Shown piece after piece: positions 24,045 through 40,412 of a DNA stretch of 64,000 bases. Source of the stretch: Saccharothrix carnea (GTDB taxonomy: Bacteria; Actinomycetota; Actinomycetes; Mycobacteriales; Pseudonocardiaceae); the NCBI RefSeq assembly GCF_003014735.1, contig NZ_PYAX01000002.1:558001-622000 (forward strand), in the 5' to 3' direction. The position numbers and the translations under genes are program-made. Each line of letters begins with the position of its first letter. Position 1 is the first letter of the stretch. The notes under the pieces are model-generated. The model was not told the DNA's origin. It saw nothing but the letters and a program-made list of their open reading frames with translations, and did not search any database.

Positions 24045-24713
24045 GTGCCCAGAGGTTTCTACGCCGACGACCGCGGTCGGGTGCGACCGGTCGCCGGAGG
24101 GGGTGGGCGGAGCGGTTCGGTGCTGTTGGCCGGGCTGATCGCGCTCAGCGCGGTGGGGTACGGGGGAGCGGTCGGCCTCAGCGCGGGCGGCGGTTCGGGC
24201 GGTGGCGGTGGCCCGGGGTCGAGCGTCGAGGAGCGTGCGGTTCAGGGCGGTGATCTCGCCCGGAGAGGTGACGCCGAGGGCGCGTGGCAGCGGATGGGGC
24301 TGCGCGAGCTGAAGCGGACGGACGTGCAGCGTGCTCCGTGCGCGGACGCGTCGTTCGGCCGGGTGCGGGAGTTCCTCCGGCAGCACGAGTGCACGTCGGT
24401 GGACCGGGTGCTGTTCACCGTGGGGGACGACGCGGGCAACTCGGCGGTGATCGCGGTGGCCTGGGTGGCGTTGGCCTCGCGCGGTGACGCGCGGGAGTTC
24501 CAGGACCTGGTGGACGCGCCCGGCACCGGTGACGTGAAGGCGCTCGGCACGGCTCAGGTCGGGTTGGCCGAGGTCGCGTTCAGCGGCGCGAACTACGGCT
24601 CGGAATGCGACCGGACGACGGTCACCGTCGCCGAGGCGGAGGTCGCCACCGGGTACGTCACGCCGGAGGTGTTGGACGCGCTGGCGGAGGTGGCGGCGCG
24701 GCTGCCCCGCTGA
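24045..24713 (+). CDS. Single-pass membrane protein, unknown function
   Basis: Protein of 222 residues that I do not recognise. A short charged N-terminus precedes one membrane helix (about 26-48, SVLLAGLIALSAVGYGGAV), then a Gly/Ser linker and an extracellular domain of about 150 residues with three cysteines (in RAPCADAS, QHECTSVD and YGSECDR). The GTG start at 24045 follows a strong GGGGAGGAGG. Its last 56 bp overlap the convergent ECF S-component gene. No domain suggests a function. Confidence 0.68.
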   Translation: MPRGFYADDRGRVRPVAGGGGRSGSVLLAGLIALSAVGYGGAVGLSAGGGSGGGGGPGSSVEERAVQGGDLARRGDAEGAWQRMGLRELKRTDVQRAPCADASFGRVREFLRQHECTSVDRVLFTVGDDAGNSAVIAVAWVALASRGDAREFQDLVDAPGTGDVKALGTAQVGLAEVAFSGANYGSECDRTTVTVAEAEVATGYVTPEVLDALAEVAARLPR

Positions 24714-25491
24714 ACGCCGGGTCGCCGAACGACGCCCGGCGCGCGGCCCGGCGCAGCGTGCGCAGCAGGACCGGGCCGGTCACCAGCACCAGGATCGTGG
24801 TCGTGACGGCCCGGCCGACGTCCCAGCCGAGCGAGGTGGCCAGGCTGAACGCCACCACGCGCACCAGGTTGTCCAGGATCGGCGCGCCCGGCTGGAAGGA
24901 CAGCGAGGTGCTGCCCGCGCTCAACGCGAACGGCCAGAACGAGAGGTTGAGCAGCAGCCCGTAGACCAGGGACGCGACGGCGCTGTAGGCGGCGAGGAGC
25001 GCGAGTTCGGCCTTGCCGCGCAACGGCGGCAGCAGCCCCGCGCCCAACGCCACCCACGCCGCGCCGAGCATCTGGTACGGCAGCCAGGGCCCGACACCGC
25101 CGGTGAGCAAGGCGGACGCGAACAGCATGGTGTTGCCGAGGACGAACCCGAACCCGGGCCCGAAGACTCGCCCGCCGAGGACGAGCAGGAAGAACACCGT
25201 CTCGATGCCCGCGGTGCCCGCGCCGAGGGGTCGGATCGCGGCACCCAGCGCGGACAGCACGCCCAGCATCGCCACGGCCTTCGCGTCCAGGCCGCGGTCG
25301 CTGATCTCGGCGAGGACGACGGCCAGGACGAGGGGGAGCAGGAGGGCGAACGTCCACGGCGCGGTGGCGCCCTGCGCGAGCGCGGCGTCGGAGGAGACCA
25401 GCAACGGCCAGCCGAAGGCGACGACGCTGATCGCGGCGGCGATGGCCAGGGCGAGGGTGGCGCGCGGGCGGATCCGGACCGGTTCGCTCAT
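24658..25491 (-). CDS. ECF transporter S component (predicted cobalamin specificity)
   Basis: Integral membrane protein of 277 residues with about six to seven helices (for example TLALAIAAAISVVAFGWPLLV, WTFALLLPLVLAVVLAEI and TVFFLLVLGGRVFGPGFGFVLG). S components bind the vitamin and give the transporter its specificity. The substrate call rests on the operon's cobalamin riboswitch, not on this sequence alone. The ATG at 25491 overlaps the ATPase stop as ATGA. The C-terminus is Ala/Pro-rich and overlaps the convergent gene at 24658-24713. Confidence 0.85.
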   Translation of the reverse strand: MSEPVRIRPRATLALAIAAAISVVAFGWPLLVSSDAALAQGATAPWTFALLLPLVLAVVLAEISDRGLDAKAVAMLGVLSALGAAIRPLGAGTAGIETVFFLLVLGGRVFGPGFGFVLGNTMLFASALLTGGVGPWLPYQMLGAAWVALGAGLLPPLRGKAELALLAAYSAVASLVYGLLLNLSFWPFALSAGSTSLSFQPGAPILDNLVRVVAFSLATSLGWDVGRAVTTTILVLVTGPVLLRTLRRAARRASFGDPAFSGAAAPPPPPARPTPPA

Positions 25492-27089
25492 GACGCGGCC
25501 AGGGCCGCGCGGACGTCGGCCACGGTCAGCCAGGGTTGTGGGGCGAGCACCTTGGCCACCTGCGGTGAGAACACCGGGGACGCGGTCACCACCTCGGCGG
25601 TCGGGCCGTCCGCCACCACCTCGCCCTCGGCCAGCACGACGACGCGGGTCGCGTACTCGGCGACGAACTCCACGTCGTGCGTGGCGAGCACGATCGCGTG
25701 GCCTCGGCCGGCGAGGTCGCGCAACGCGGCGGCCAGGCGGGTCTTGGCCGGGTAGTCGAGGCCCCGCGTCGGCTCGTCCAGCAGCACGGCCCGCGGTGAT
25801 GGCGTGAGGGCGACGGCCAGCACCAGCGCGAGCCGTTGGCCTTCCGACAGGTCGCGCGGGTGCCGGTCGTCCGGGATGCCCGGCGCGAGCCGGTCGAGGA
25901 ACTCGCGGCACGTGCCAGGCGGCTTGCCCGACTCGCGGTCGGCCTGCGCGCACTCGCCGCTGACGGTGTGCAGGTACAGCAGGTCGCCGGGTTGCTGCGG
26001 GACCAGACCGATGGCCGCGCGCCGCGGACCGGGCTTGAGGGTCGCCGGGTCGACGCCGTCCACCGCGACGTCACCGCCGGACCGCTTGCCGGTGCCCTGC
26101 ACGGCCCACAGCAGACTGGACTTGCCCGATCCGTTGCGGCCCATCACGGCCACCCGCTCGCCGGCGCCGACGTTCAGCGACACGCCGCGCACAGCGTCCA
26201 CGGTGGAGTACCGGACCCGCAGGTCGTCGGTGCGGATCAGCTCCCCGGACGGCGACGGTGACGCCACCGGTGGTTCGGCGAGGCGGTCGCGCAGCGGACC
26301 GGCCAGCCGCCGCGCGTCCCGGATGGACACCGGCACCGGTTGCCAGCCGGCCAGTTGGCCGAGCCGCACGACGGGAGGCGCGACCGGCGCGTCCGCCAGC
26401 ACCGGGCCCGGCTCGCCGGTGACCGGCGGCAGGCCGCCACCGGGCAGCCACACGACGCGGTCCGCGTACTGCGCGACCCGTTCCAGGCGGTGTTCGGCGA
26501 TCAGCACCGTCATGCCCAGGTCGTGCACCAGGCGGTGCAGCGCGGCGAGCACGTCCTCGGCCGCACCGGGGTCCAGGGCGGAGGTCGGCTCGTCCAGCAC
26601 CAGCACCTTGGGATGGGCGGTGAGGGCCGCGCCGACCGCGACGCGTTGCTGCTGCCCGCCGGACAACGTGGCCAGCGGCCGGTGTCGGAGTTCGGCCAGG
26701 CCGAGCAGGTCCAACGTCTCCTCGACCCGCTTGCGCATCACGGGGTTCGGCAGCGCCAGCGATTCCATCGAGTAGGCCAGTTCCTCCTCGACGGAATCCG
26801 TGACGAATCCGGCCTGCGGGTCCTGTCCCACCAGGCCCACGACGTCCGCCAGCTCACGCGGTGGGTGGGTGCGGGTGTCACGTCCGGCGACCAGCACGCG
26901 ACCGGTGAGCGTGCCGCCGGTGAAGTGCGGTACCAGGCCGTTGACCGCGCGCAGCAACGTCGACTTGCCCGACCCCGTGCGCCCGACCACCAGGCACAGC
27001 TCGCCTTCCGGCACGTGCAGGTCCACCGCGGACAGCGCCGGTGCGGCGGCGTCGCGGTAGGTGACGGAGACGTTCTCGAACCGGATCAC
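25488..27089 (-). CDS. ECF transporter duplicated ATPase (EcfA-EcfA')
   Basis: Protein of 533 residues with two complete ABC ATPase domains. Domain 1 has Walker A VVGRTGSGKSTLL, signature TLSGGQQQRVAV and Walker B VLVLDEPTSALD. Domain 2 has Walker A VMGRNGSGKSSLL, signature DLSEGQRLALVL and Walker B AVLLDEPTRGLD. Fusion of both energising ATPases in one chain is usual for actinobacterial ECF systems. The GTG at 27089 overlaps the T-component stop (GTGA); a longer frame upstream lacks support. It powers uptake through the adjacent T and S subunits. Confidence 0.92.
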   Translation of the reverse strand: MIRFENVSVTYRDAAAPALSAVDLHVPEGELCLVVGRTGSGKSTLLRAVNGLVPHFTGGTLTGRVLVAGRDTRTHPPRELADVVGLVGQDPQAGFVTDSVEEELAYSMESLALPNPVMRKRVEETLDLLGLAELRHRPLATLSGGQQQRVAVGAALTAHPKVLVLDEPTSALDPGAAEDVLAALHRLVHDLGMTVLIAEHRLERVAQYADRVVWLPGGGLPPVTGEPGPVLADAPVAPPVVRLGQLAGWQPVPVSIRDARRLAGPLRDRLAEPPVASPSPSGELIRTDDLRVRYSTVDAVRGVSLNVGAGERVAVMGRNGSGKSSLLWAVQGTGKRSGGDVAVDGVDPATLKPGPRRAAIGLVPQQPGDLLYLHTVSGECAQADRESGKPPGTCREFLDRLAPGIPDDRHPRDLSEGQRLALVLAVALTPSPRAVLLDEPTRGLDYPAKTRLAAALRDLAGRGHAIVLATHDVEFVAEYATRVVVLAEGEVVADGPTAEVVTASPVFSPQVAKVLAPQPWLTVADVRAALAAS

Positions 27090-28138
27090 GTGTTCACCCT
27101 GTTCCTGGCGATGACGACGGGTGCGAGCGCGCACAGCAGGCCGATGGCGGGCAGCAGCGGCAGTCCGGGCACGGTCAGCGGCACGGTCGACGGGGTCAAC
27201 GCGGCGCCGCCGAGGCCGTCCGGCGCGAGGAACGTCGCCAGTGCCGCGACCAGCCCGGACCCGATGACCAGCAGCTCGTGCGGCCCCCAGCGGTCCGGTC
27301 GGTACCGGCTGCGCCGCACCCGCCGTGAGCCGGTCCACAGGCCCCCGATCGCCGACACCGAGCCCACCAGCAGCATCGGCGCGGCGGGCGTGCCGCCACC
27401 CAGCAGCCCGTACGCGCCGACCGCCAGACCCGTCAACCCGCCCAGGACCAGGACGCCGGTCAGGAGGCGGGTCCGCCGGGGCAGCCCCGCCGTCCGGCCG
27501 TAGCCGCGCGAGTCCATCGCGGCGGCCAGCACCAGTGACCGCTCGAACGCGTCCTCCAGCACCGGCACCATCAGCACGCGCATCGCCTTCACGCCACGCA
27601 CCACGTCACCGCGCAGTGCCCGAGCCCGCCGTACGGACCGGGCGCTGGCCACGAGCTGCGGTGCGACCGTCAACGCCACCACGACCGCCACGCTCACCTC
27701 GTACAACGCCGCCGGCAGCGATCGCAGCAGCCGCTTGGCGTTGGCCAACGCGTTCGCGGCGCCCACGCAACACAGCAACGTCGCCAGCTGAAGCCCCTGG
27801 TACACGGCGAAAGCGAGCCCTTCGGCGCTGACCGGGCCACCCAGCCGGATGCCCTTCGTCCACTCCGGCAACGGGACCTCGGGCAACGTCACGAGCACCG
27901 TCGGCCCGGTCACGCCACCGAGCAGCACGTGCAGCACCACCCGGATGGCCAGCACCACCAGCGCGAACTTGAGGAACACCCCGTAGGCACTGGCCCACGG
28001 GGTGTCCTCGCGGCACGACACGGCCACGTACCCGGCGACCGCGATCACCAGCGCCAGCAGCACCGGGTTGGTGGTGCGGCTCGCGATGGCGGCCAGGCAC
28101 AACGCCCACACCCACCACGCGCCGGGGTGAAGCCTCAC
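27086..28138 (-). CDS. ECF transporter T component (CbiQ-like)
   Basis: Membrane protein of 350 residues. The CbiQ-type transmembrane region runs from about residue 5 to 270. The coupling-helix motifs that contact the ATPases are SARSVRRARALRG and SRGYGRT in AAAMDSRGYGRT. GTG at 28138 is chosen because it gives a GTGA overlap with the DUF4430-like gene, matching every other junction in the operon. It scaffolds the S component and the fused ATPase. Confidence 0.9.
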   Translation of the reverse strand: MRLHPGAWWVWALCLAAIASRTTNPVLLALVIAVAGYVAVSCREDTPWASAYGVFLKFALVVLAIRVVLHVLLGGVTGPTVLVTLPEVPLPEWTKGIRLGGPVSAEGLAFAVYQGLQLATLLCCVGAANALANAKRLLRSLPAALYEVSVAVVVALTVAPQLVASARSVRRARALRGDVVRGVKAMRVLMVPVLEDAFERSLVLAAAMDSRGYGRTAGLPRRTRLLTGVLVLGGLTGLAVGAYGLLGGGTPAAPMLLVGSVSAIGGLWTGSRRVRRSRYRPDRWGPHELLVIGSGLVAALATFLAPDGLGGAALTPSTVPLTVPGLPLLPAIGLLCALAPVVIARNRVNT

Positions 28139-28950
28139 TCCGCCGCCTTGGCGCGCCTTCGCGCGGTCCACCCGCCGAGACCGGCCAGTGCGGCGATCAC
28201 CACTATCCCGATGACCAAGCCGACCGTGCCACCGGAGTCGGCGGGCGGCTCGGCCGCGGTGGAAGGCTGAGCCGCGGTCGTGGTCGGGCCGGAGGTCGTG
28301 CTGCCGGCCACCGTTTCCGCCGAGGTGGGCGGGGTGGTCGTGGTTTCCGCTGTCGAGGTCGACGTGGACGTGACCGTCGCCGGAGCGGGAGCCGGTTGTC
28401 CGGGCTGTGCCGCGGGTTGGCCCGGATCCGGCGCGGGTTGTGCCGGGTTGGGCGCGGGCTGGGCCGGGGCGGGTGGTGGCGGGGCGGGTTGGACCGGCTT
28501 CGGGGCGGGCGCCGGTGGGGCGATCCCCGGCTGCTCACCCGCACCGAACGACCAGCCCTCCACGCTGCCCGGCGCCGGGTCGTACGAGCCCGCGCCGGCG
28601 CTGCTGTAGGTCCACGATCCGCCGGGCCGGCCGTGCCAGTAAGCCCAGTGGGCGGTGGCGGGGGACGTGGTGACGCACGGATCGCCGCTCGGCTTGCCGT
28701 TGATCCGGCACACGAAGCCGGGTTGCCGGGAGGCGAACGTGTAGCCGAAGCCGGCGGCGGCCAGCGCGGCCGTTCCCGACGACGGATCACCCGGGGCGCA
28801 GCCGGTCTGCACGCCGCCGCCGAGGGAGCGGAAGTCCACGACCACCGTGACGCCCGCGCAGTCGGCCGCCCGGGCGGTCAGGGGGGTGTTCGTCATCGCG
28901 AGCCCGACGACGGCCGACGCCGTCAGCGCTCGTCGCCACCAGCTCGTCAC
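28135..28950 (-). CDS. Secreted membrane-anchored DUF4430-like (transcobalamin C-domain-like) protein
   Basis: Protein of 271 residues. It has a signal peptide (WWRRALTASAVVGLAMTNTPLTARA), then a domain of about 110 residues with the DUF4430 pattern: TVVVDFRSLGGGVQ, an Ala-rich helix (GTAALAAAGF), FVCRINGKPSGDPC and AHWAYWHGRPGGSWTYSSAG. A long Pro/Ala/Gln then Thr/Ser linker leads to a C-terminal helix and basic tail (LVIGIVVIAALAGLGGW). DUF4430 is related to the beta domain of animal transcobalamin. With the neighbouring barrel protein and a cobalamin riboswitch this suggests B12 capture on the cell surface. The start is fixed by a GTGA overlap. Confidence 0.78.
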   Translation of the reverse strand: MTSWWRRALTASAVVGLAMTNTPLTARAADCAGVTVVVDFRSLGGGVQTGCAPGDPSSGTAALAAAGFGYTFASRQPGFVCRINGKPSGDPCVTTSPATAHWAYWHGRPGGSWTYSSAGAGSYDPAPGSVEGWSFGAGEQPGIAPPAPAPKPVQPAPPPPAPAQPAPNPAQPAPDPGQPAAQPGQPAPAPATVTSTSTSTAETTTTPPTSAETVAGSTTSGPTTTAAQPSTAAEPPADSGGTVGLVIGIVVIAALAGLGGWTARRRAKAAE

Positions 28951-30254
28951 TTGCCTGCGTCCGCGTGGCGCTTGCGCGACAACAGGACCGCGAGCACACC
29001 GCCCACCAGCAGCAACGCGCCGATCCACAGCGCCGGGCCGACCGCGGCGCCCGTGCGGGCGAGGGTGCCGCGGTTGCTCGCCACGGCCACCACCGCGTTC
29101 GTCGTCGTGGCGTCCGTGGTGGTGGAGGTGGTGGTCGCGTCCGTCGACGTGGTGGCGGTGGTGGTGGTAGTGGTGATGTCCGAAGTGGAGGACGTCGGCG
29201 TAGTGGTGGTGACCGGGCAGTCGAGCACGGGCACGTCCGCCTGGTCGCCTTCGGCGGTCAGGTCCGCGAAGTTCACGCCGACCAGGCCGAGGACGCCCTG
29301 CGCGCTCGCCCGCAACGACGTGGCCCGCGTGAACGCGGTCTTGTCGAACGCGATCGCGCCCCGGTCCGCCTCGACGGCCGTGCAGCCGACCTGCAACGAC
29401 CTGAGGAACGCGGTCGCCTTGTCGGCAGCGGCGGTGCGGCCGCCCGCGCGCAACGCCTGCGCGGCGAGACCGGTGCTGTTGGCGTTGCCCTCACCGGCCT
29501 GGCCCTCGTCGCGGAACCCGCCACCGGGCTGCTGCACGCCGTCGCCGGACAGCCAGTCGAGCGCCTTGTCCGCCACCGCCGTCCGGTCGACCGCCAGCAG
29601 CGCCTGCACGGCCATCGCGGTGGCGTCCACGTGGGACACGCACGGCGTCGCCTCCAGGACGAGCGGGAAACCGCCGTTCGGGCACTGGGTGCCGACGAGG
29701 TAGTCGACGGCGGCCTTCGGCGCGCCGTCCCAGCGGTCCAGCGCGAGCACCGCGAACGCCTGGGTGAAGCCGTTGGAGTAGTCGCCGTACTTGGACTTGT
29801 CCTGGAACCGGCCGGACGGCGCCCGCAGCGCGGTGAGGCCGGCGATCAGGTCGGTGCCGCCGAAGCTCGTCGGGTCCAGCCCGCGCACCTGGACCGCCAG
29901 GGCCAGCTTGGCGTGCGCGCCCGCGAACGACTCGGCCGGGTCGCCGAAGTGCAGGTAGTTGTCGATGATCGCGGGCTCGGCGAGCCAGGCGGTGGCCCGG
30001 TCCGCGCGGTCCGCCGCCACGCCGGCCGCGGTGAACGCGAACAGCGCGTCCAGCGTGAGGCCCTGGTCGGGGTAGGCGACGCCGTCGAGGACGTTCTCGA
30101 AGTGGTCGCCGTCGACGAGCTGCCGGGCGAGCCAGCCCGCGGCGGCGGCGCCCGCGTCCGTCGTCGGCACCGCCTGCGCCTGGCTCGGCGGGACCAGCGC
30201 GAGCGCGGTGACAGCGGCGGCGGCGAGGACGGCGGCGGTCCGTCTCAACGGCAT
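28947..30254 (-). CDS. Sortase-anchored alpha/alpha-barrel (prenyltransferase/squalene-oxidase-repeat) surface protein
   Basis: Protein of 435 residues. Residues 1-28 are a signal peptide. About 35-330 is a six-hairpin alpha/alpha toroid of the terpenoid-cyclase-like fold, with repeats such as VDYLVGTQCPNGGFPL and ALDWLSGDGVQQPGGGF; catalytic cyclase motifs are absent. A Thr/Ser linker leads to LARTG at about 398, a hydrophobic helix and RKRHADAGK, a class E-type sortase signal. The same fold forms the alpha domain of transcobalamin and intrinsic factor. It is the first gene after the riboswitch. ATG at 30254 is preferred, with GGAAAGG upstream. Confidence 0.82.
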   Translation of the reverse strand: MPLRRTAAVLAAAAVTALALVPPSQAQAVPTTDAGAAAAGWLARQLVDGDHFENVLDGVAYPDQGLTLDALFAFTAAGVAADRADRATAWLAEPAIIDNYLHFGDPAESFAGAHAKLALAVQVRGLDPTSFGGTDLIAGLTALRAPSGRFQDKSKYGDYSNGFTQAFAVLALDRWDGAPKAAVDYLVGTQCPNGGFPLVLEATPCVSHVDATAMAVQALLAVDRTAVADKALDWLSGDGVQQPGGGFRDEGQAGEGNANSTGLAAQALRAGGRTAAADKATAFLRSLQVGCTAVEADRGAIAFDKTAFTRATSLRASAQGVLGLVGVNFADLTAEGDQADVPVLDCPVTTTTPTSSTSDITTTTTTATTSTDATTTSTTTDATTTNAVVAVASNRGTLARTGAAVGPALWIGALLLVGGVLAVLLSRKRHADAGK

Positions 30255-30340
30255 GTTCGGCCTTTCCGGGGCGCGAGGCGCGAGCGGACCCCGGACAGCC
30301 GTGACCGACATCCCCCGGGCTCCGACCCGTTGACCTCGAC

Positions 30341-30468
30341 GGTGTCAGGAGCGTGGCACGCGTGCCGGGTGTTCGGGCTCGTCCCGGGTGGGACCTACCG
30401 TTGCGGGTCAGCGCCGGATTTCGACCGGCTTCCCCCGTGTCACGCGCGATTGCCGATCGTCTGTCACC
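30341..30468 (-). ncRNA. Cobalamin (B12) riboswitch
   Basis: Read on the minus strand, this leader contains the conserved core GGGGAAGCCGGTCGAAATCC, followed by GGCGCTGACCCGCAACGGTA and, after a GTCCC/GGGAC hairpin, GAGCCCGAACACCCGGC. P4-like GCCGG/CCGGC pairs around the loop. CGCGTG (30446-30441) pairs with CACGCG (30363-30358). An outer P1 pairs GGTGACAG (30468-30461) with CTGACACC (30348-30341) with one A-A mismatch. It lies 86 bp upstream of the first gene of the ECF operon, so B12 should repress expression. A TTGACA at 30484-30479 is a possible -35, but its -10 would fall inside P1. Confidence 0.88.
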
Positions 30469-30562
30469 GACCTTGGCGTGTCAATCCACCTCTGGCGCGA
30501 TGCTGCTCACCCCTACGTACGGTTACCGTCGGTCGATTCGATCTGGGGAAGAGGGGTGTTCG
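30469..30562. promoter_or_regulatory. Short region between riboswitch and P450 gene
   Basis: It carries the small palindrome ACGGTTACCGT (30519-30529), a candidate site in the P450 promoter, and the P450 ribosome binding site GGGGAAGAGGGG. The promoter of the leftward ECF operon should also lie here. Together with the riboswitch this accounts for the 308-bp gap between the two start codons. Confidence 0.4.
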
Positions 30563-31825
30563 ATGACGACTCTGGCGTCCGTGCGCGACGGCTTGGTGGC
30601 GTGGGTCGCACGGCGTTCGGCGACGCGGTGGGTGTTGGGCAAGATCGGTTCGCGGGCGTTTTCGCTGCTCCCGGACCGTGCGCTGGTCCCGTTGAAGCGG
30701 GACGGGGTGGTACCGGTCGCCGAGTTGGAGCGGATGCGGGATACCGGCGCGGTGCACCGGATCCCGGTGCCGTTCGGCTTGCGGGTGTGGTTGGTCACAG
30801 GTCAGGACGAAGCGAAGAAGGTGCTTTCCGACACAGGCGCGTTCAGCAACGACTACGCCCGGCTCGGCGCGGCGGTCGGTCGGCTGGAGCAGTCGCCCGG
30901 CGGCCTCGGCTTCGCCGACCCGCCCGACCACACCCGGCTGCGCAAGCTGCTCACGCCGGAGTTCACCATGCGCCGGCTGTCGCGGCTGGTGCCGCGCATC
31001 GACGCGATCGTCACCGAGCGGCTGGACGCCATGCAGGCCGCGGACGGGCCCGTCGACCTGGTCCAGGAGTTCGCGCTGCCGATCCCGTCGCTGACGATCT
31101 GCGAGCTGCTGGGCGTGCCCTACGAGGACCGTGACCGGTTCCAGGAGCTGGCGGCGGCGCGGTTCGACCTGTTCGGCGGTGCGGGGCAGGCGTTGGGCGC
31201 GATCTCTGAGTCGCTGTCCTACATGGAGGAGATCGTGCGCCGCGAGCGCCGGTCGCCGGGTGACGGCCTGATCGGGTCGATCATCCGGCAGCACGGTGAC
31301 GACGTGAGCGACGTGGAACTGGCCGGGCTGGCGGACGGTGTGCTGACCGGTGGGTTCGACACGACGGCGTCGATGCTCGCGTTGGGCGCGATCGTGCTGC
31401 TGAGGGACGACGCCGCGCGTGCGTCGATGCGTGACGACGACGCGGCGGTCGCGCCGTTGGTGGAGGAGCTGCTGCGGCACCTGAGCGTCGTGCAGGTGGC
31501 GTTCCCGCGGTTCGCCCGGCACCCGTTGACGGTCGGTGAGCAGCGGATCGAGGAGGGTGACGTGGTCGTGGTGTCGCTGTCGGCGGCCAACCGCGAGGAG
31601 GCGTCCGACTTCGACGCGGGACGTCCGGCGTCGCAGCACCTGGCGTTCGGCTACGGCGCGCACCGGTGCGTGGGCGCGGAGCTGGCGCGGCTGGAGCTGC
31701 GCGCCGCGTACCCGGCCCTGCTGCGCCGGTTCCCGAACCTCCGGCTGGCCGACGAGCGGCAACCCGCGTTCCGCACCGCGTCGATCGTCCACGGCGTCGA
31801 CTCGCTGTTCGTGCACACGCGCTGA
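30563..31825 (+). CDS. Cytochrome P450
   Basis: Soluble P450 of 420 residues. The heme loop FGYGAHRCVGAELARLEL has the axial Cys369, the I-helix segment is LTGGFDTTASML (acid-Thr pair DT) and the K-helix ExxR is EELLRHL. Bacterial class I P450s of this type hydroxylate small molecules with ferredoxin help; no ferredoxin gene is adjacent. ATG at 30563 follows GAGGGG and is preferred over a 70-codon extension that would run through the riboswitch region. The N-terminus is longer than usual (about 40 residues before the fold). The substrate is unknown. Confidence 0.93.
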   Translation: MTTLASVRDGLVAWVARRSATRWVLGKIGSRAFSLLPDRALVPLKRDGVVPVAELERMRDTGAVHRIPVPFGLRVWLVTGQDEAKKVLSDTGAFSNDYARLGAAVGRLEQSPGGLGFADPPDHTRLRKLLTPEFTMRRLSRLVPRIDAIVTERLDAMQAADGPVDLVQEFALPIPSLTICELLGVPYEDRDRFQELAAARFDLFGGAGQALGAISESLSYMEEIVRRERRSPGDGLIGSIIRQHGDDVSDVELAGLADGVLTGGFDTTASMLALGAIVLLRDDAARASMRDDDAAVAPLVEELLRHLSVVQVAFPRFARHPLTVGEQRIEEGDVVVVSLSAANREEASDFDAGRPASQHLAFGYGAHRCVGAELARLELRAAYPALLRRFPNLRLADERQPAFRTASIVHGVDSLFVHTR

Positions 31826-34334: not shown

Positions 34335-37300
34335 CTACGCGTCCAGCACCGCCGAGAGGTGCCGCGCCAGCGCGGCGACGTGCGGCAGGTCGACCATGGA
34401 CAGGTGGTCGCCGGGCACCGGCACGACCTCCAACGTGCCGCACGCGTCGGCCCACCCGAGGTCGTCGTCGTCCTGCCGGCGCAGGTAGCGCGGGTCGAGC
34501 ACGGTGGTCAGCGTCTCCCGGTCGGTCGCCCGGTAGAACACGACCCGCCCCGGGTAGTACCGGGGCGTGAACCGCTCGGCCGCCCGCGCGTCCAGGTAGG
34601 ACGTGCGCTGGTGGCGCAGCGCCCCGGGGCTGATGCCCAGGTCGGCGACGGCGGCCAGCACCGCGTCGATCTGGCCCACGTCGTCCAACCCGGACAGCGA
34701 CTCCCACGGCAGCTCGACCGACGTGCCGTAGACCTCCTCGACGTGCCGGGCGTACCGGGCGAACCGGTGGCGCACCAGGTCGGCGGGCGGGACGTCGGGC
34801 GCGGGCAGCGGCCGGACGGTGTCGATCATCACCACCAGCTCGACCTCGGCGCCCGCGTCCCGCAGCAGGCACGCCACCTCGTGCGCCAGGCACCCGCCGA
34901 ACGACCAGCCGCCCAGCACGTACGGCCCGGACGGCTGCACCGACCGCACCAGCTCCGCGTACCGCGCCGCCTTGGCCGGGATGTCCGGCACGTCGTCGAT
35001 CCGCTCGTACCCGTAGCAGGGCCGGTCCTCCAGCAACCCCACCAGCGGCTCGTACACGCTGGTCGGCCCACCCGCCGGGTGGAACAGGTGCACCGGCCGC
35101 CGCGACCCGCCCGCGCGCAGCACCCGCACCGGCCCGCCCACGTCCTCGAACGCCGCGCGCAGCCGTTCGGCCATCGCCTCGACGGTCGGCGCGGTCAACA
35201 GCGAGTCGTCCACCGCCACCCGGCGACGCACCAACGCCAGCAGCCGCTCGGGTGAGCCGCCGAGGGCGGAGAAGTCGTCGCGGACGCCGAAGTCCCGCCG
35301 CCCCAGCACCTCCGCCCACAGCCCGAACACCCACCGCTCGGTCGGGTCACGCGGCTCGACCCGCGTCGGCGCCTCGGGTTCGAGCCCGGCCACGTGCCGT
35401 TCGACGTCACGCAGGCTCGCGCCGCGCAGCAGCAACGGCACGGGCAGCTCCACGCCCAGGTCGTGCTCGACCGCGTTGCGCAACCTCATCGCCATCAACG
35501 AGTCCAACCCGAGCGACGTCAACGGCAGCGACGGGTCCGGCACACCGCCCATCACCCGCGCCACGATCGCGCTCAACCGGTCCGCCGGCGGCACGTCGGA
35601 CGGTGGCCGGAGGAACGACTCGAAGAACGGCCGGTGCGCGAGCCGCGGGAACAGCTCCACCACCCGGCGCCGGTCGAACCGCACCACACCGGTCGCCACC
35701 CGCCCGGACATCAACAGCGCCTCCACCGCCTGCACGCCCTCGGCCGGCGAGATCGGCCGCAGCAGCGGGTTGTCGTTGTCCCGGGCCAACCCGACCCGGC
35801 TCCACGCGCCGAAGTCGATCGTCGTCGCGGGCAGCCCGGACGCCCGCCGCCACCGGGCGAAGCCGTCCAGCCACGCGTTGGCCACGGCGTACGCGGCCTG
35901 ACCGGGCGAGCCGAGCAGTGCCGCCGCCGAGGAGAACACCACGAACCAGTCCAGCCGGTGCCCGGCCGTCGCCTCGTGCAGCCGCAGCGCGCCGTCGACC
36001 TTGGGCCGCAGCACGCGGCGCACGTCGGCGGGGTCGAGCCGGTCGAACGGCGCGTCGGCCAGCACACCGGCCGCGTGCACCACCCCGCACAGCCGCAGCC
36101 CGCCGTCCACCGCCGCCGCGACCGCCCGTTCGGCCACCCCGGGTTCGGCGACGTCACCGGTCACCACGACCACGTCCGCGCCGAGCGCCCGCAGCTTCGC
36201 CACCTCGGCCCGCGCGTCCGGCGACGGCTCACGACGACCGCACAGCACGATCCGCACCGCACCGCGTTCGGCCAACCACCGCGCCATGACCAGCCCCAAC
36301 GCGCCCAGCCCGCCGGTGATCAGGTACCCGCCCGAGTCGACCGCGGACCCGGTCGCGGGCACCTCGACCTCCGCCCGCCGCAGCCGTGCCGCGTAGCGCA
36401 CGCCACCGCGCCAGGCGACTTCGTCGTCGGTCTGGTCGGCGAGGAGTTCACGGGGCAGCACGGCGACGTCGTCCACGTCCACGACGGTCGCCCGCAACTG
36501 CGGCCGTTCGAACGCCAGCACCCGCACCGCGCCGCGCAACGCGGCCCGCTCCGGCACGCCCGCCTCACCGTCCAGCACGCAGGCCGCGTCGCGCGTGACG
36601 ATCCACAGCCGCCGCGTGTCGTGCGCCAACGCCGCCAACCGCAGCAAGTCCTGCTCAAGACCGCCGGGACCGAACACGATGCCGTCCGCTCGGGCGGAGG
36701 GATCGGTGGTCACCTGGTGCCCGGCGTCGATCAGGGCGTCGGCCAGGTCCCGGTCGTCGGCGAGCAGCAGCCACGTGCGGGACGCGTCGTCGACGGAGGG
36801 AAGGTCTTGCCGTTCCCACCGTGTCTCCAGCGCGAGCCCCGACAACGCGACCGACACCGGCCGCACCCGGACGTCCGCCGCCTCCACCAGCAGCGTGCCC
36901 GCGTCGTCGTACAGCCACACCGACCCGGTCAGCTCGCCGCCGCCGCTCTCCCGCACCACGGCCTCGCACCGGTCCGCGCGCCGCGGGTCGCCGTGCAGCC
37001 GCACGGCACCGATGCCGACCGGCAGGTACGGCCCACCGGCGGCGCGGTCGAGCGCGGCGGCGGCGAGCGCGTGCAGGCACGAGTCGAGCAGCGTCGGCGG
37101 CAGCCGCCAACCGCGGTCGGGACCGTCCGGCCGGCTGACCAGGCAACTCGCCGCGCCCGCACCCGCGCGGGCGGACCGGACACCCCGGAACGCCGGGCCG
37201 TAGTCCATCCCGGCCTCGGCCAGCCGGTCGTACAGGTCGACCGGCTGGAGTCCAGTGTGGACAGTTGGTGGTGCGTCGGACCGCTCGCCGGGGACGACGG

Positions 37301-40300
37301 TCGCGGTGGCGTGCCGCACCCACCCGTCCGACGCCTTCGCGTGCACCTCGACGCGTCCATCCCGGAACGTGGTGCTCAGCCGCACCTCGTCGGTGAGGGG
37401 CAGCAGCGCCTCGAACACGACGTCACGCACCGACAGCGGACCGGCCACCACCTGCGCGCCGGCGGCCAGGGCGATCTCCACGTACGCGGCGCCGGGCAGC
37501 ACGGCGGTGTCCCGCACCCGGTGGTCCCCCAGCCACGGCAACGCGGCCAGGCCCACGTCGGCCTGCCACGCGTGCGTGCCGTCCGGCAGCTCGACGTGGT
37601 CGCCGAGCAGCGGGTGCCCGGCCCGCCGGAGCGGGGGAGCGGTCCAGTGCGGGCGGTGTTCCCACGGCGCGGTCGGCACGTCGGTGACGCCCCGGGCGGG
37701 CACCAGGCCGTGCAGGTGCAGCGACGCCAGGTTGTCGTGGAAGGTGCGCACGTCGTCGGTGTCGCGGCGCAGCGAGCCGACCAGCACGAGGTCGGGTGCG
37801 TGCTCGGCGATCGCGGGCAGCGCCACGGGGTGCGGCGAGACCTCCAGGAACGCGGTGAAACCGTCCTCCAGCGCGGCGGTCACCGCCTGGGTGAACCGGA
37901 CCGGGTGGCGCAGGTGCGCGGTCCAGTAGTCGGCGGTGAACGGCGGCGCGTGCCGGGGGTCGGCCAGGACCGTCCCGTACAGCGGCACGTCACCGCGTCG
38001 TCCGGTGACGTGCCGCAGCGCCGACGCCAGCTCGTCCAGCACGGGTTCGACGGCGGGGGAGTGGCCGCTGGTGCGCAGCGGCAGGACCCGCGCCAGCCCG
38101 CCGTCCGCCTCGACCCGGGCGACCAGCGCGGTGAGCCGGTCGGCGGGACCGGACACCGTGCAGCGGCGCGGGGCGGCGTGCACGGCGACCGACAGCGCCG
38201 GGTCGTCCACCTCGTCGGCGGGCAGTTCGACCGCCGCCATCCCACCGCCACCGGCCGCGTCGACCACGTCCAGCAGCCGTGCCCGGGTGGTGATCACCAA
38301 CGCCGCGTCGGCCAGCGACAACGCGCCGCTCACCACCGCGGCGGCGACCTCTCCCGCGGACTGCCCGATCACCGCCGCCGGGCGCAGTCCGCGCGACTGC
38401 CAGAGCCGGGCGAGCGCGAACTGCACGCCGAACAACGCGATCTGGCCGTCGCCCAGGGTGTCCGAGGGCTGGTCCAGCAACGCGCGCACCGAGTGCGGCG
38501 CGATCAGCCGGTCCACCTCGTCCACCGCCGCCGCGAACACGGGTTCTTCGGCCAGCAGCCGCCGTCCCATGCCCGCCCAGCCCGAGCCGTAGCCGGAGAA
38601 GACCCACACCGCGCGGTCGCGTCGTTCGGCGCGGCCGACCGGGCGGTCTCCCTTGGCCAACGCCCGGAGTTCGGCCGCCACCGCGGTTCGGTCCGACCCG
38701 CTGACGACCGCCGCGTGCCGCTCACGGCCACGACGGCGGGCCAGGGTCGACGCCACGTCGTGCAGGTCGGCGTGCGTGGTGGACAGCCAGTCCGCCAGCT
38801 CGGCGGCGTGCCGCCGCACGCGCCCCTCGGACGTGCCCGCCACCACGAGGAACGCCGGGCCGTCCGGCCGGTCCGCCGGTTCGGGCGCGGGCGGCTCCTC
38901 CAGCACGACGTGCGCGTTCGTGCCGCCGAACCCGAACGACGACACACCGGCCGTGATGTGGCCTGAGTAGCGCGGCCACGGTGTCGGCTCGGTGACCACG
39001 CGCAGGCCGGTGAAGTCGATGTGCGGGTTGGGCTCGCGGAAGTGCGGGCTCGGCGGCAGCTCGCCGTGCCGCACCGCCAGCACCGTCTTGACCAGCCCGA
39101 TCACGCCCGCCGCCGACTCGGCGTGACCGAAGTTCGCCTTGGCCGACCCGAGCAGCAACGGCCCGTCCGACCGACCCAGCACCTCCCGCAGCGCACCGGC
39201 CTCGATCGGGTCGCCGAGCAGCGTTCCGGTGCCGTGCGCCTCCACGTAGTCCACCCGGGACGGGTCGACGCCCGCGTCCGCGTACACCCGGCGCAGCAGG
39301 TCGGCCTGTGCCTGGGGGTTCGGTGCCATCAGTCCGTTCGAGCGCCCGTCGGAGTTCACGCCGCTGCCCCGGATCACCGCCAGCACCCGGTCACCGTCGC
39401 GCCGCGCGTCCGACAGCCGCTTGAGCACGACCGCCGCGCAGCCCTCGGCGCGGGCGATGCCGTCCGCGGAGGCGTCGAACGGCTTGCACCGCCCATCGGC
39501 CGACAGCAGGCCCGCGCGGTGGAACGTGAGCGTGACGGCGGGTCCGAGCAGCAGGTTCACCCCGGCGGCCACGGCGGCGTCCGTCTCGCCCGCGCGCAGG
39601 CTCTGGACCGCGTGGTGCACCGCCACCAGCGACGACGAGCACGCCGTGTCCACCGCCAGGCTCGGCCCGCGCAGGTCGAGCAGGTACGACAGCCGGTTCG
39701 CGGCGATGCTCAGCGCGCCGCCGGTCGCCGTCCACGGCTCGACCCGGCCCAGGTCGGCCGCGCTCGACGCGCCGTACTCGCCGGTCGAGATGCCGACGAA
39801 CACGCCGGTCCGGCTGCCGCGCAAGCTGTCCGGCGCGATGCCCGCGTGGTGCAGCGCCTCCCACGACACCTCCAGCACCAGCCGTTGCTGCGGGTCCATC
39901 AGCGCGGCCTCGTGCGGCGCGATGCCGAAGAACTCCGCGTCGAAGCCCTTGAGGTCGGGCAGGAAACCGCCGAACCGGGGCGTGCCCTCGGGCAGGCCGG
40001 GCCACCGGTCCGGCGGCGCGGGCGTGACCGCGTCACCACCCGAGCGCAGGAAGTCCCACAACCGGTCGGGACCGTCGACACCGCCCGGCAACCGGCAGCC
40101 GACGCCGACCACCGCGATGCCCTCGGCGACCGGCCGGGTGGGTTCGGGAGCGGCCGCGGTGCCCGGCGCGGCGAGGTGGCGGGCCAGCCGGGCGATCGTC
40201 GGGTGTTGGTAGAACACCGTCGCGGGTAGCGGTGCGTCGAGGAACTCGCCCAACACGCCCGCGAGCACGACGGCGTCACGTGACGACAGGCCGATTTCGG

Positions 40301-40412
40301 CCAGGGGCTGGTCGACGTCCACCTCGCCCTCGGTCAGGTCGGCGAGTTCCGCGACGCGCCGCACCAACCAGGCGCGGAGTTCCGCTTCCGCGGGCGTGCC
40401 GAGGCCGGTCAT
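34335..40412 (-). CDS. Type I polyketide synthase, Pks13-like: ACP-KS-AT-DH-KR-ACP-(carrier)-TE
   Basis: Protein of 2025 residues. N-terminal ACP (1-85, Ser44 in GLSSRDAV), KS (about 97-510; Cys258, His393, His430 all present), AT (about 600-870; Ser685 in GQSAGE), DH (about 930-1190; His964, Asp1110), KR (about 1360-1540; Ser1494, Tyr1508, Asn1512), ACP (Ser1638 in GLDSLMAM), a carrier-like segment (about 1690-1755) with GGSPERLL and no Ser in the usual place, and a thioesterase (about 1775-2025; Ser1837 in GGWSFGG, His2003). The first ACP closely resembles that of mycobacterial Pks13, which is loaded by a fatty-acyl-AMP ligase; such a ligase is divergent here. Expected role: one condensation on a fatty acyl starter, reduction, then release. 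Confidence 0.93.
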   Translation of the reverse strand: MTGLGTPAEAELRAWLVRRVAELADLTEGEVDVDQPLAEIGLSSRDAVVLAGVLGEFLDAPLPATVFYQHPTIARLARHLAAPGTAAAPEPTRPVAEGIAVVGVGCRLPGGVDGPDRLWDFLRSGGDAVTPAPPDRWPGLPEGTPRFGGFLPDLKGFDAEFFGIAPHEAALMDPQQRLVLEVSWEALHHAGIAPDSLRGSRTGVFVGISTGEYGASSAADLGRVEPWTATGGALSIAANRLSYLLDLRGPSLAVDTACSSSLVAVHHAVQSLRAGETDAAVAAGVNLLLGPAVTLTFHRAGLLSADGRCKPFDASADGIARAEGCAAVVLKRLSDARRDGDRVLAVIRGSGVNSDGRSNGLMAPNPQAQADLLRRVYADAGVDPSRVDYVEAHGTGTLLGDPIEAGALREVLGRSDGPLLLGSAKANFGHAESAAGVIGLVKTVLAVRHGELPPSPHFREPNPHIDFTGLRVVTEPTPWPRYSGHITAGVSSFGFGGTNAHVVLEEPPAPEPADRPDGPAFLVVAGTSEGRVRRHAAELADWLSTTHADLHDVASTLARRRGRERHAAVVSGSDRTAVAAELRALAKGDRPVGRAERRDRAVWVFSGYGSGWAGMGRRLLAEEPVFAAAVDEVDRLIAPHSVRALLDQPSDTLGDGQIALFGVQFALARLWQSRGLRPAAVIGQSAGEVAAAVVSGALSLADAALVITTRARLLDVVDAAGGGGMAAVELPADEVDDPALSVAVHAAPRRCTVSGPADRLTALVARVEADGGLARVLPLRTSGHSPAVEPVLDELASALRHVTGRRGDVPLYGTVLADPRHAPPFTADYWTAHLRHPVRFTQAVTAALEDGFTAFLEVSPHPVALPAIAEHAPDLVLVGSLRRDTDDVRTFHDNLASLHLHGLVPARGVTDVPTAPWEHRPHWTAPPLRRAGHPLLGDHVELPDGTHAWQADVGLAALPWLGDHRVRDTAVLPGAAYVEIALAAGAQVVAGPLSVRDVVFEALLPLTDEVRLSTTFRDGRVEVHAKASDGWVRHATATVVPGERSDAPPTVHTGLQPVDLYDRLAEAGMDYGPAFRGVRSARAGAGAASCLVSRPDGPDRGWRLPPTLLDSCLHALAAAALDRAAGGPYLPVGIGAVRLHGDPRRADRCEAVVRESGGGELTGSVWLYDDAGTLLVEAADVRVRPVSVALSGLALETRWERQDLPSVDDASRTWLLLADDRDLADALIDAGHQVTTDPSARADGIVFGPGGLEQDLLRLAALAHDTRRLWIVTRDAACVLDGEAGVPERAALRGAVRVLAFERPQLRATVVDVDDVAVLPRELLADQTDDEVAWRGGVRYAARLRRAEVEVPATGSAVDSGGYLITGGLGALGLVMARWLAERGAVRIVLCGRREPSPDARAEVAKLRALGADVVVVTGDVAEPGVAERAVAAAVDGGLRLCGVVHAAGVLADAPFDRLDPADVRRVLRPKVDGALRLHEATAGHRLDWFVVFSSAAALLGSPGQAAYAVANAWLDGFARWRRASGLPATTIDFGAWSRVGLARDNDNPLLRPISPAEGVQAVEALLMSGRVATGVVRFDRRRVVELFPRLAHRPFFESFLRPPSDVPPADRLSAIVARVMGGVPDPSLPLTSLGLDSLMAMRLRNAVEHDLGVELPVPLLLRGASLRDVERHVAGLEPEAPTRVEPRDPTERWVFGLWAEVLGRRDFGVRDDFSALGGSPERLLALVRRRVAVDDSLLTAPTVEAMAERLRAAFEDVGGPVRVLRAGGSRRPVHLFHPAGGPTSVYEPLVGLLEDRPCYGYERIDDVPDIPAKAARYAELVRSVQPSGPYVLGGWSFGGCLAHEVACLLRDAGAEVELVVMIDTVRPLPAPDVPPADLVRHRFARYARHVEEVYGTSVELPWESLSGLDDVGQIDAVLAAVADLGISPGALRHQRTSYLDARAAERFTPRYYPGRVVFYRATDRETLTTVLDPRYLRRQDDDDLGWADACGTLEVVPVPGDHLSMVDLPHVAALARHLSAVLDA

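Follow-up and report, generated by a model that had tools for sequence, protein, structure and literature searches.

The window analysed here, a stretch of 64,000 nucleotides from the soil-type actinobacterium Saccharothrix carnea (NZ_PYAX01000002.1, positions 558,001 to 622,000), carries on its minus strand five genes which we hold with good confidence to form a B12-controlled operon for the capture and import of cobalamin, or of corrinoids generally. The window is best read as encoding a split transcobalamin-like receptor, putatively binding B12, that feeds an ECF importer, and the same split-receptor operon type is, on the best reading of the relatives surveyed, found in many Actinomycetota. 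An earlier note on this DNA had proposed a split transcobalamin-like system coupled to an importer, and this interpretation was supported by the analysis described below.

Gene arrangement and the cobalamin riboswitch

The ORF starts and stops confirmed the operon of five genes as first described, including its coordinates and its 4-bp overlaps (Table 1). Genes 1 to 5 have predicted minus-strand starts at 30254 (or 30311), 28950, 28138, 27089 and 25491, respectively, and all four junctions are 4-bp stop/start overlaps, three with GTGA and one with ATGA. The leader, previously recognised as a cobalamin riboswitch, passed the RNA family search with RF00174 at 30435-30367 (-), and no other Rfam match of the window reached the gathering threshold. 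The riboswitch is compact (model positions 45-169), with a score just over the Rfam cut-off and not high. Between the riboswitch and the start codon, folding of the leader did not exceed that of shuffled sequence (z 0.22).

Table 1. Positions of the riboswitch and of the operon genes in the window.
Feature	Position	Strand	Evidence
Cobalamin riboswitch aptamer core, RF00174	30367..30435	-	35.7 bits by cmscan (gathering score 31.5), E 2.1e-05
Gene 1 (alpha), 435 aa, secreted alpha/alpha-toroid protein with a LARTG sorting signal at the C-terminus	28947..30254	-	ORF, sequence reading
Gene 2 (beta), signal peptide, predicted transcobalamin-type beta domain, Pro/Thr stalk and C-terminal membrane anchor, 271 aa	28135..28950	-	Reading, AlphaFold model
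Beta domain part given to structure prediction, 123 aa	28501..28869	-	
Gene 3, ECF T component (EcfT/CbiQ)	27086..28138	-	PF02361
Gene 4, EcfA-EcfA', two ABC ATPase domains in one chain	25488..27089	-	PF00005 in two stretches
Gene 5, ECF S component, CbrT-like	24658..25491	-	Profile A8 to 6fnp_A

The ECF importer and its probable substrate

The assignment of the last three genes as ECF T, A-A and S components held. Gene 3 matched PF02361 with 33.4 bits (cut-off 25), and gene 4 matched PF00005 twice, its matches to the ECF_ATPase models (E ~1e-80) lying under their equivalog cut-offs. The match of gene 5 to PF12822 was under cut-off (E 7.6e-4). A profile of 29 rows with the window S component first (A8) was searched against the PDB and found 6fnp_A at E 8.4e-21, the next matches being 5d0y (0.087) and FolT (0.28). 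The entry 6FNP is the structure of ECF-CbrT (PMC5997447), and its chain A, being 182 aa long, would by its length be CbrT. This homology supports gene 5 as a CbrT-like S component with putative cobalamin binding and links the substrate to B12 by evidence separate from the riboswitch.

CbrT is reported to bind and transport both Cbl and Cbi (PMC5997447), and the true substrate could be a corrinoid other than cobalamin, for instance cobinamide or an incomplete corrinoid, salvaged in a B12 producer. Further riboswitch matches of the same genome adjoin CobN and Mg-chelatase-like genes, and the S. carnea genome therefore probably makes B12, as such salvage would suppose. The riboswitch and the CbrT homology, however, indicate cobalamins in the first place. 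We consider another corrinoid as the true substrate somewhat unlikely, and the two roles do not exclude each other.

Conservation in related genomes

Matches to NF053823 (SCO2321_fam) were present in 97 of 296 genomes, a figure not usable as a count of systems because other toroid proteins score too; alpha matches over the SCO2321 cut-off were present in 8 of the 296. Forty genomes were picked from the 97 for strong alpha matches or for ECF genes nearby. When RF00174 matches at E <=0.001 per genome, lying <=1200 nt upstream and on the same strand as alpha, were considered, 34 of the 40 had a riboswitch upstream of the alpha gene against 0.013 expected, a proportion that describes selected genomes because they were chosen for alpha strength or adjoining ECF genes. 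The Rfam cut-off was exceeded by 19 of the 34 linked riboswitches, and where a genome had a single RF00174 match, this was the alpha-linked one in 24 of 26 cases. One of the 34, G033, was counted through a second alpha copy and not through the copy beside its ECF genes; the riboswitch-alpha distances in G006, G040 and G085 were 900-1021 nt. Six of the 40 genomes had no riboswitch upstream of alpha, and three of these belong to a genus with matches over the SCO2321 cut-off and are probably Streptomyces-like. Two cobalamin riboswitches are tabulated for S. lividans, at cobalt transport and cob genes, and none at a comparable operon (PMC8079986).

A second set comprised the 21 genomes with Pfam DUF4430 matches minus G040 and G107, both of which were in the first set. 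Here RF00174 was found <=4 kb upstream, a limit chosen after the distances were known, in 14 of 19 genomes (0.035 expected). Eleven of these 14 riboswitches were over the Rfam cut-off, and the match was linked in all eight genomes having a single one. Applied to 10 of the 80 named loci, cmscan placed an element directly upstream of alpha in six (L107, L109, L112, L130, L136 and L153) and none there in L113, L115, L119 and L131. In L130, L136 and L153 a soluble alpha with its own riboswitch points away from an alpha-beta set on the opposite strand, which is likewise headed by a riboswitch.

The gene sets were conserved together with this riboswitch linkage in the genome survey, one of the checks suggested in the earlier note. 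All five gene types occurred together in 22 of 38 loci in a first survey and in 45 of the 80 named loci, where gene types and copies were surveyed on both strands; no beta was found within the surveyed stretch in 16 of the 80, some of them short contigs. Alpha and beta were fused in three of the four searched genomes of one genus, and S-alpha fusions, in which an additional hydrophobic segment was read between the two parts, were present in 5 of 24 loci. Copies were assigned as anchored or soluble by a simple hydropathy and motif rule. Two or more alpha and two or more beta genes were present in 38 of the named loci; in 26 of these the rule gave one soluble and one anchored copy of each half and no further copies, and 12 were without this clean pattern. 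L114 and L117 carry one soluble and one anchored pair on opposite strands. Where the order was alpha-beta-alpha-beta on one strand (20 loci), the nearest neighbour of each copy was always one in the same position, for 40/40 alpha and 40/40 beta domains. Among the loci with a single pair, 10 of 37 combined an anchored beta with an alpha having neither LPxTG nor a hydrophobic anchor, and in one of the ten (L048) alpha carries SLH domains instead.

The two surface proteins

The product of gene 2, by reading, has a small domain between its signal peptide and a Pro/Thr-rich stalk, followed by a C-terminal hydrophobic segment. It had been described as DUF4430-like, which fails as a sequence call since a Pfam search at E up to 0.1 gave no match, DUF4430 (PF14478) included. 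No Pfam DUF4430 match was found in its own genome, and its match to the SCO2322 family (E 2.9e-5) was under cut-off. Searched against the PDB sequences, the beta profile gave no match at E up to 1, and structure prediction was therefore used. The AlphaFold model of the beta domain (pLDDT 85.8, pTM 0.82) was submitted to a fold search, and the top 15 of 113 PDB matches were transcobalamin, haptocorrin and the bacterial protein 3u7z, with probabilities of 0.80-1.00 and a best E of 0.019, none of the matches being at E <=0.001. Alignment by hhalign of beta with the over-cut-off DUF4430 members of comparable operons gave a probability of 58.5 (E 9.6e-5), compared with 0.3 (E 0.18) for an unrelated control. 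While the family name did not stand, the fold that it implied was borne out by the AlphaFold model, which supports a transcobalamin-type beta domain in gene 2.

L063 is a relative's protein in which alpha and beta are naturally fused. Its predicted model matched transcobalamin, intrinsic factor and haptocorrin from end to end, the top 13 PDB matches having E values of 1.2e-8 to 3.2e-7. The domains of this apo model are placed unlike those of closed holo-transcobalamin (rmsd ~23 A over the full-length match). The kind and order of the domains, a toroid and then beta, are common to transcobalamin and the model, which is of L063 and not of the window alpha. Alignments A3, A4 and A6 gave identities of 39%, 38% and 44%, respectively, between the gene 1 toroid and the alpha portion of L063; A3 and A4 misplace the ends of the alpha rows, and A6 has their C-terminal part cut off.

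In the product of gene 1 itself, a signal peptide, as read from the sequence, precedes the toroid repeats, and these are followed by LARTG, a run of hydrophobic residues and a basic tail. The last three features, together with a class E sortase in the same genome (261.6 bits, cut-off 160), fit a LAxTG sortase substrate, the matches to the NCBIfam LAXTG models all being under cut-off. The different means of anchoring proposed for the two proteins, a LARTG sorting signal for gene 1 and a C-terminal hydrophobic segment for gene 2, were likewise seen on reading. Gene 1 matched NF053823 at E 4e-29, under the model cut-off, and a PADLOC scan of the alpha protein gave no match.

Against PF01122 (Cobalamin_bind), gene 1 scored 15.1 bits where the cut-off is 25 (E 0.012), and transcobalamin was missing from the 51 PDB sequence matches of the alpha profile. 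This lack of an over-cut-off match to B12 carriers would suit an arrangement in which the ECF transporter imports B12, beta alone binds it, and alpha serves at the wall as a scaffold or docking protein without contact to B12. Isolated human TC-beta has been crystallised with CNCbl and with Cbi (PMC5599065), and beta is, as mentioned above, the only half with a recognised anchor in ten single-pair loci. In contrast, the fusions with the S component in five loci involve alpha, and alpha and beta are fused to each other in three genomes; soluble alpha proteins under their own riboswitches in three loci, and a duplication that keeps the alpha and beta lineages together, also speak against a scaffold. 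We therefore regard such a role of alpha as unlikely.

The PDB sequences closest to the alpha profile were squalene-hopene cyclases (E 1e-39), and complement C3d scored too. By sequence alpha is nearer to the cyclases and C3d than to transcobalamin, which corrects the likeness drawn in the earlier note. Alpha could then be envisaged as an enzyme that resembles class II terpene cyclases or modifies corrinoids, in an operon for corrinoid remodelling and not for capture. DxDD is the acid motif of class II terpene cyclases, and as it was present in 0 of 22 aligned rows the cyclase reading was rejected. Alpha is moreover exported and anchored by reading, and C3d is itself a non-enzymatic toroid, which makes an enzymatic alpha very unlikely. 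It is hardly credible that the two surface proteins are bystanders in an otherwise ordinary ECF operon. Both have low-complexity stalks, and the S component is better conserved than either, but their linkage is conserved and they occur as fusions and duplicate jointly.

Proposed mechanism and implications

On the preferred reading, a split receptor feeding the ECF importer, the riboswitch would permit expression of the operon when B12 is low. Alpha would be attached to the wall by the class E sortase and beta held in the membrane, and the two halves may close on B12 in the manner of transcobalamin. Separately expressed TC alpha (with CD320) and TC beta have been reported to associate only with Cbl present, and intrinsic factor reportedly behaves like transcobalamin in this Cbl-dependent association of domains (PMC5599065). 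B12 would then be handed on to the CbrT-like S component, with the T and A-A components driving uptake with ATP. In relatives having both sets, the soluble halves probably scavenge B12 off the cell and the anchored halves receive it. More tentatively, one may envisage a B12 relay of Actinomycetota in which, where both kinds of copy are encoded, secreted alpha and beta act like a protein cobalophore and the anchored pair delivers to the CbrT-like importer, and in which the two-domain design of the animal carriers descends from such bacterial proteins and is not a vertebrate invention.

The operon provides a concrete candidate B12 receptor for monoderm bacteria, as well as a candidate function for the SCO2321 and SCO2322 families and for DUF4430 proteins adjoining ECF genes, and the putative secreted binders represent a possible strategy of B12 competition. 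The two folds that make up the vertebrate B12 carriers occur side by side in bacteria, in neighbouring genes and in natural fusion proteins, which turns the question of where intrinsic factor and transcobalamin came from into a testable one.

Relation to known systems

In the open-licence PMC literature, we found no paper linking DUF4430 or a transcobalamin-like protein to bacterial B12 uptake. The system in the window looks like an unrecognised Gram-positive route for B12 catching and uptake. The NCBIfam families SCO2321 and SCO2322, which the window alpha and beta match under their cut-offs, have model names that give no function.

ECF-CbrT of Lactobacillus delbrueckii resembles the window system in its S component, homologous by profile, although about 57 N-terminal profile positions of the window-type S fall outside the 6fnp_A match. 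Unlike ECF-CbrT, whose cbrT sits in a nrdJ-cbrS-cbrT-pduO cluster, the window operon has its own T and A-A genes and two surface proteins. BtuG of Bacteroides is a beta-propeller, and BtuG and BtuH, unlike the window proteins, are lipoproteins serving the outer-membrane BtuB. The BtuG/BtuH/BtuB system is alike in that surface proteins catch B12 and deliver it to a transporter (PMC12751083). A riboswitch-headed ECF module reported as a putative cobalamin transporter in acI actinobacteria is also similar, and the part of that account dealing with the module names neither surface proteins nor transcobalamin (PMC5301498).

The vertebrate carriers transcobalamin, intrinsic factor and haptocorrin likewise combine an alpha/alpha toroid with a beta domain, in the order seen in the bacterial fusion L063. 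They carry both domains in one chain, whereas the window has two separate anchored chains from two genes, which differ further in their coupling to an ECF importer, their control by a riboswitch, their sequence under the PF01122 cut-off and a closure of the two domains that is, for the window pair, putative.

Riboswitch and genes of the operon

The leader of the operon carried a cobalamin riboswitch above its gathering threshold, and the five minus-strand genes downstream followed one another with start and preceding stop codons sharing 4 bp at all four junctions, confirming the earlier note on both points. The third gene encodes EcfT (PF02361, over cut-off), the fourth a double ATPase and the fifth an S component. 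A profile of 29 S components, headed by that of the window, matched 6fnp_A with an E-value of 8.4e-21, the next match being at 0.087. 6FNP is ECF-CbrT, a transporter reported to bind and take up both cobalamin and cobinamide (PMC5997447). The closest alpha gene from a named relative was that of Saccharothrix sp. NRRL B-16348 (86% identity in the best segment), and the source organism therefore probably belongs near Saccharothrix within the Pseudonocardiaceae.

The 8.9-Mb source genome held four further cobalamin riboswitch matches, near CbtA, CobN, Mg-chelatase-like and FecCD genes, and the organism is therefore probably a B12 producer that nonetheless retains this uptake operon. A P450-like ORF, assigned by reading, is divergent from the riboswitch, and a single polyketide synthase gene (KS, AT, DH, KR, PP-binding and thioesterase matches) lies near the operon.

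Features of the window, its source genome and loci of relatives (C, contig; G, genome; L, locus of a relative)
Feature	Location	Strand	Remark
Operon	window, 24658-30468	minus	
Cobalamin riboswitch RF00174	window, 30435-30367	minus	35.7 bits, gathering 31.5
Gene 1 (alpha)	window, 28947-30254	minus	
Gene 2 (beta)	window, 28135-28950	minus	
P450-like ORF	window, 30353-31825		
Polyketide synthase	window, 34338-40412	minus	
Riboswitch match	G000 C12:48133		
Riboswitch match	G000 C8:263582		
Riboswitch match	G000 C1:346151		
Riboswitch match	G000 C1:499224		below cut-off
Alpha with SLH domains	L048:6341-8149		
Alpha-beta fusion, CWB2 repeats	L063:5620-8073		genome G258
Propeller-DUF5719 protein	L090:1-1752		PQQ_2/BamB-like matches below cut-off
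Propeller-DUF5719 protein	L091:6803-9001		PQQ_2/BamB-like matches over cut-off
DUF4430 gene	L098:6598-7287		G107:C8; 25.3 bits, over cut-off

Conservation of the operon and its riboswitch

All five gene types occurred together in 22 of 38 loci from other genomes, in stretches around alpha matches, and in 45 of 80 named loci (the 80 highest-ranking of 150 relatives, both strands searched). Beta was present in 64 of the latter, and in the other 16, some on short contigs, it was not found in the retrieved stretch beside alpha.

RF00174 was searched (E up to 0.001) in 40 genomes chosen, for strong alpha matches or nearby ECF genes, among the 97 genomes (of 296) that gave alpha-like matches. It was present in 39, over the Rfam cut-off in 31 of those, with 97 matches in total, and lay within 1200 nt upstream of alpha on the same strand in 34 genomes (19 over cut-off), where uniform placement would give 0.013. 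Where a genome had a single match, this sole riboswitch stood upstream of alpha in 24 of 26 cases. The six genomes lacking the linkage comprised three of the SCO2321-type genus, presumably Streptomyces-like, one without any match, and two with gene and riboswitch on separate contigs. For S. lividans, a table in PMC8079986 gives two cobalamin riboswitches. These head cobalt transport and cob genes, and none stands at such an operon.

A second set consisted of 19 of the 21 genomes with a Pfam-recognised DUF4430, the remaining two being already in the first. In 14 of the 19 (11 over cut-off; 0.035 expected), RF00174 preceded the DUF4430 gene by no more than 4 kb, a limit fixed after the distances were seen, and in all eight single-match genomes the match was linked to this gene. 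The order DUF4430, T, A-A, S, alpha was found in 9 of 17 loci of this set (L090-L097, L106). In genome G107 the alpha gene has no riboswitch, and a DUF4430 gene follows a different cobalamin riboswitch match, below threshold, at a distance of about 500 nt.

The two surface proteins

The alpha protein has toroid repeats, a LARTG sorting signal and, by reading, a signal peptide, and a class E sortase is encoded in the same genome (over its cut-off). Squalene-hopene cyclases were the PDB sequences closest to the alpha profile, complement C3d and C4 were also matched, and transcobalamin was absent from the 51 PDB sequence matches. PF01122 scored 15.1 bits on alpha, below its cut-off of 25, and the cyclase DxDD motif was found in none of 22 aligned alpha relatives. 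In the alpha genes of L036, L037, L038 and L043 the alpha HMM matched as C-terminal half followed by N-terminal half, which would fit a circular permutation of the toroid or, alternatively, a shift in repeat register. Wall attachment of alpha varied with lineage, by SLH domains, CWB2 repeats or, in many others, LPxTG.

By reading, the small domain of beta lies between a signal peptide and a Pro/Thr stalk, with a membrane anchor at the C-terminus. The proposal that it is DUF4430-like failed as a Pfam call, the search of gene 2 giving no match, and held as a predicted fold. The model was confident (pLDDT 85.8, pTM 0.82), and transcobalamin, haptocorrin and the bacterial DUF4430 protein 3u7z filled the top 15 of 113 Foldseek matches (probability 0.80-1.00; lowest E-value 0.019, with no match reaching 0.001), the following one being unrelated, with a probability of 0.11. 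Alignment by hhalign to Pfam-recognised DUF4430 domains of comparable operons gave a probability of 58.5 and an E-value of 9.6e-5, where an unrelated control gave 0.3 and 0.18.

Alpha and beta form a single chain in three of four genomes searched of one genus (G258, G162, G247), the G258 fusion having three cell-wall-binding CWB2 stretches after the alpha-beta part. This part, when folded (pLDDT 87.6, pTM 0.75), had transcobalamin, intrinsic factor or haptocorrin as all of its top 13 PDB matches (E 1.2e-8 to 3.2e-7; 447-475 alignment columns), with terpene synthases and cyclases ranking behind. At an rmsd of about 23 A from those carriers, the modelled domains match in kind and order, with a placement unlike the closed holo-protein. 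In L102 a DUF4430 match (16.9 bits, cut-off 23.8) and a toroid share one chain. S and alpha were one open frame in 5 of 24 loci (L062, L065, L067, L072, L096), separated, by reading, by an additional hydrophobic segment which would place alpha extracellularly.

Soluble and anchored pairs

Anchors were assigned by a simple hydropathy and motif rule, and chains that stop soon after the domain and carry no anchor were taken as soluble. Of the 80 named loci, 38 (e.g. L125, L139, L146, L148) carried two or more alpha and two or more beta genes. Twenty-six of these had exactly one soluble alpha and one soluble beta, the others being anchored, an arrangement that points to a secreted scavenger of B12 together with a receptor on the cell surface. 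Of the remaining 12, seven had alpha split with one beta ambiguous and five were otherwise arranged. In the 20 loci with alpha-beta-alpha-beta on one strand, the nearest neighbour was in the same position for 40/40 alpha and 40/40 beta domains, and the two halves have therefore stayed together as a pair ever since an ancient duplication. A soluble alpha gene headed by a separate riboswitch stands divergent to a riboswitch-headed alpha-beta set in L130, L136 and L153. Single-pair loci (n=37) were mixed, with both halves anchored in 19 and beta alone in 10. The window has one pair, both anchored, and its domains resemble the soluble pair of L041 (59% and 70%) more than the anchored pair of that locus (39% and 54%).

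Proposed mechanism and comparison with known systems

When the alpha (with CD320) and beta halves of human transcobalamin are expressed separately, they associate only in the presence of cobalamin, and the same is reported for the domains of intrinsic factor (PMC5599065); a split carrier is thus workable. The bacterial halves would close on B12 and release it to the S component, with ECF transport following. The propeller protein encoded upstream of the DUF4430 gene, on the riboswitch side, in L090 and L091 is reminiscent of BtuG of Bacteroides.

A riboswitch-headed ECF module has already been termed a putative cobalamin transporter in the acI paper (PMC5301498). The NCBIfam names SCO2321 and SCO2322, the families matched below their cut-offs by alpha and beta, state no function, and in the open-licence articles searched no bacterial B12 receptor resembling transcobalamin was described. 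B12 uptake by an ECF transporter is of a known kind, and here it would be joined to a capture device whose design is, to our knowledge, otherwise found only in animals.
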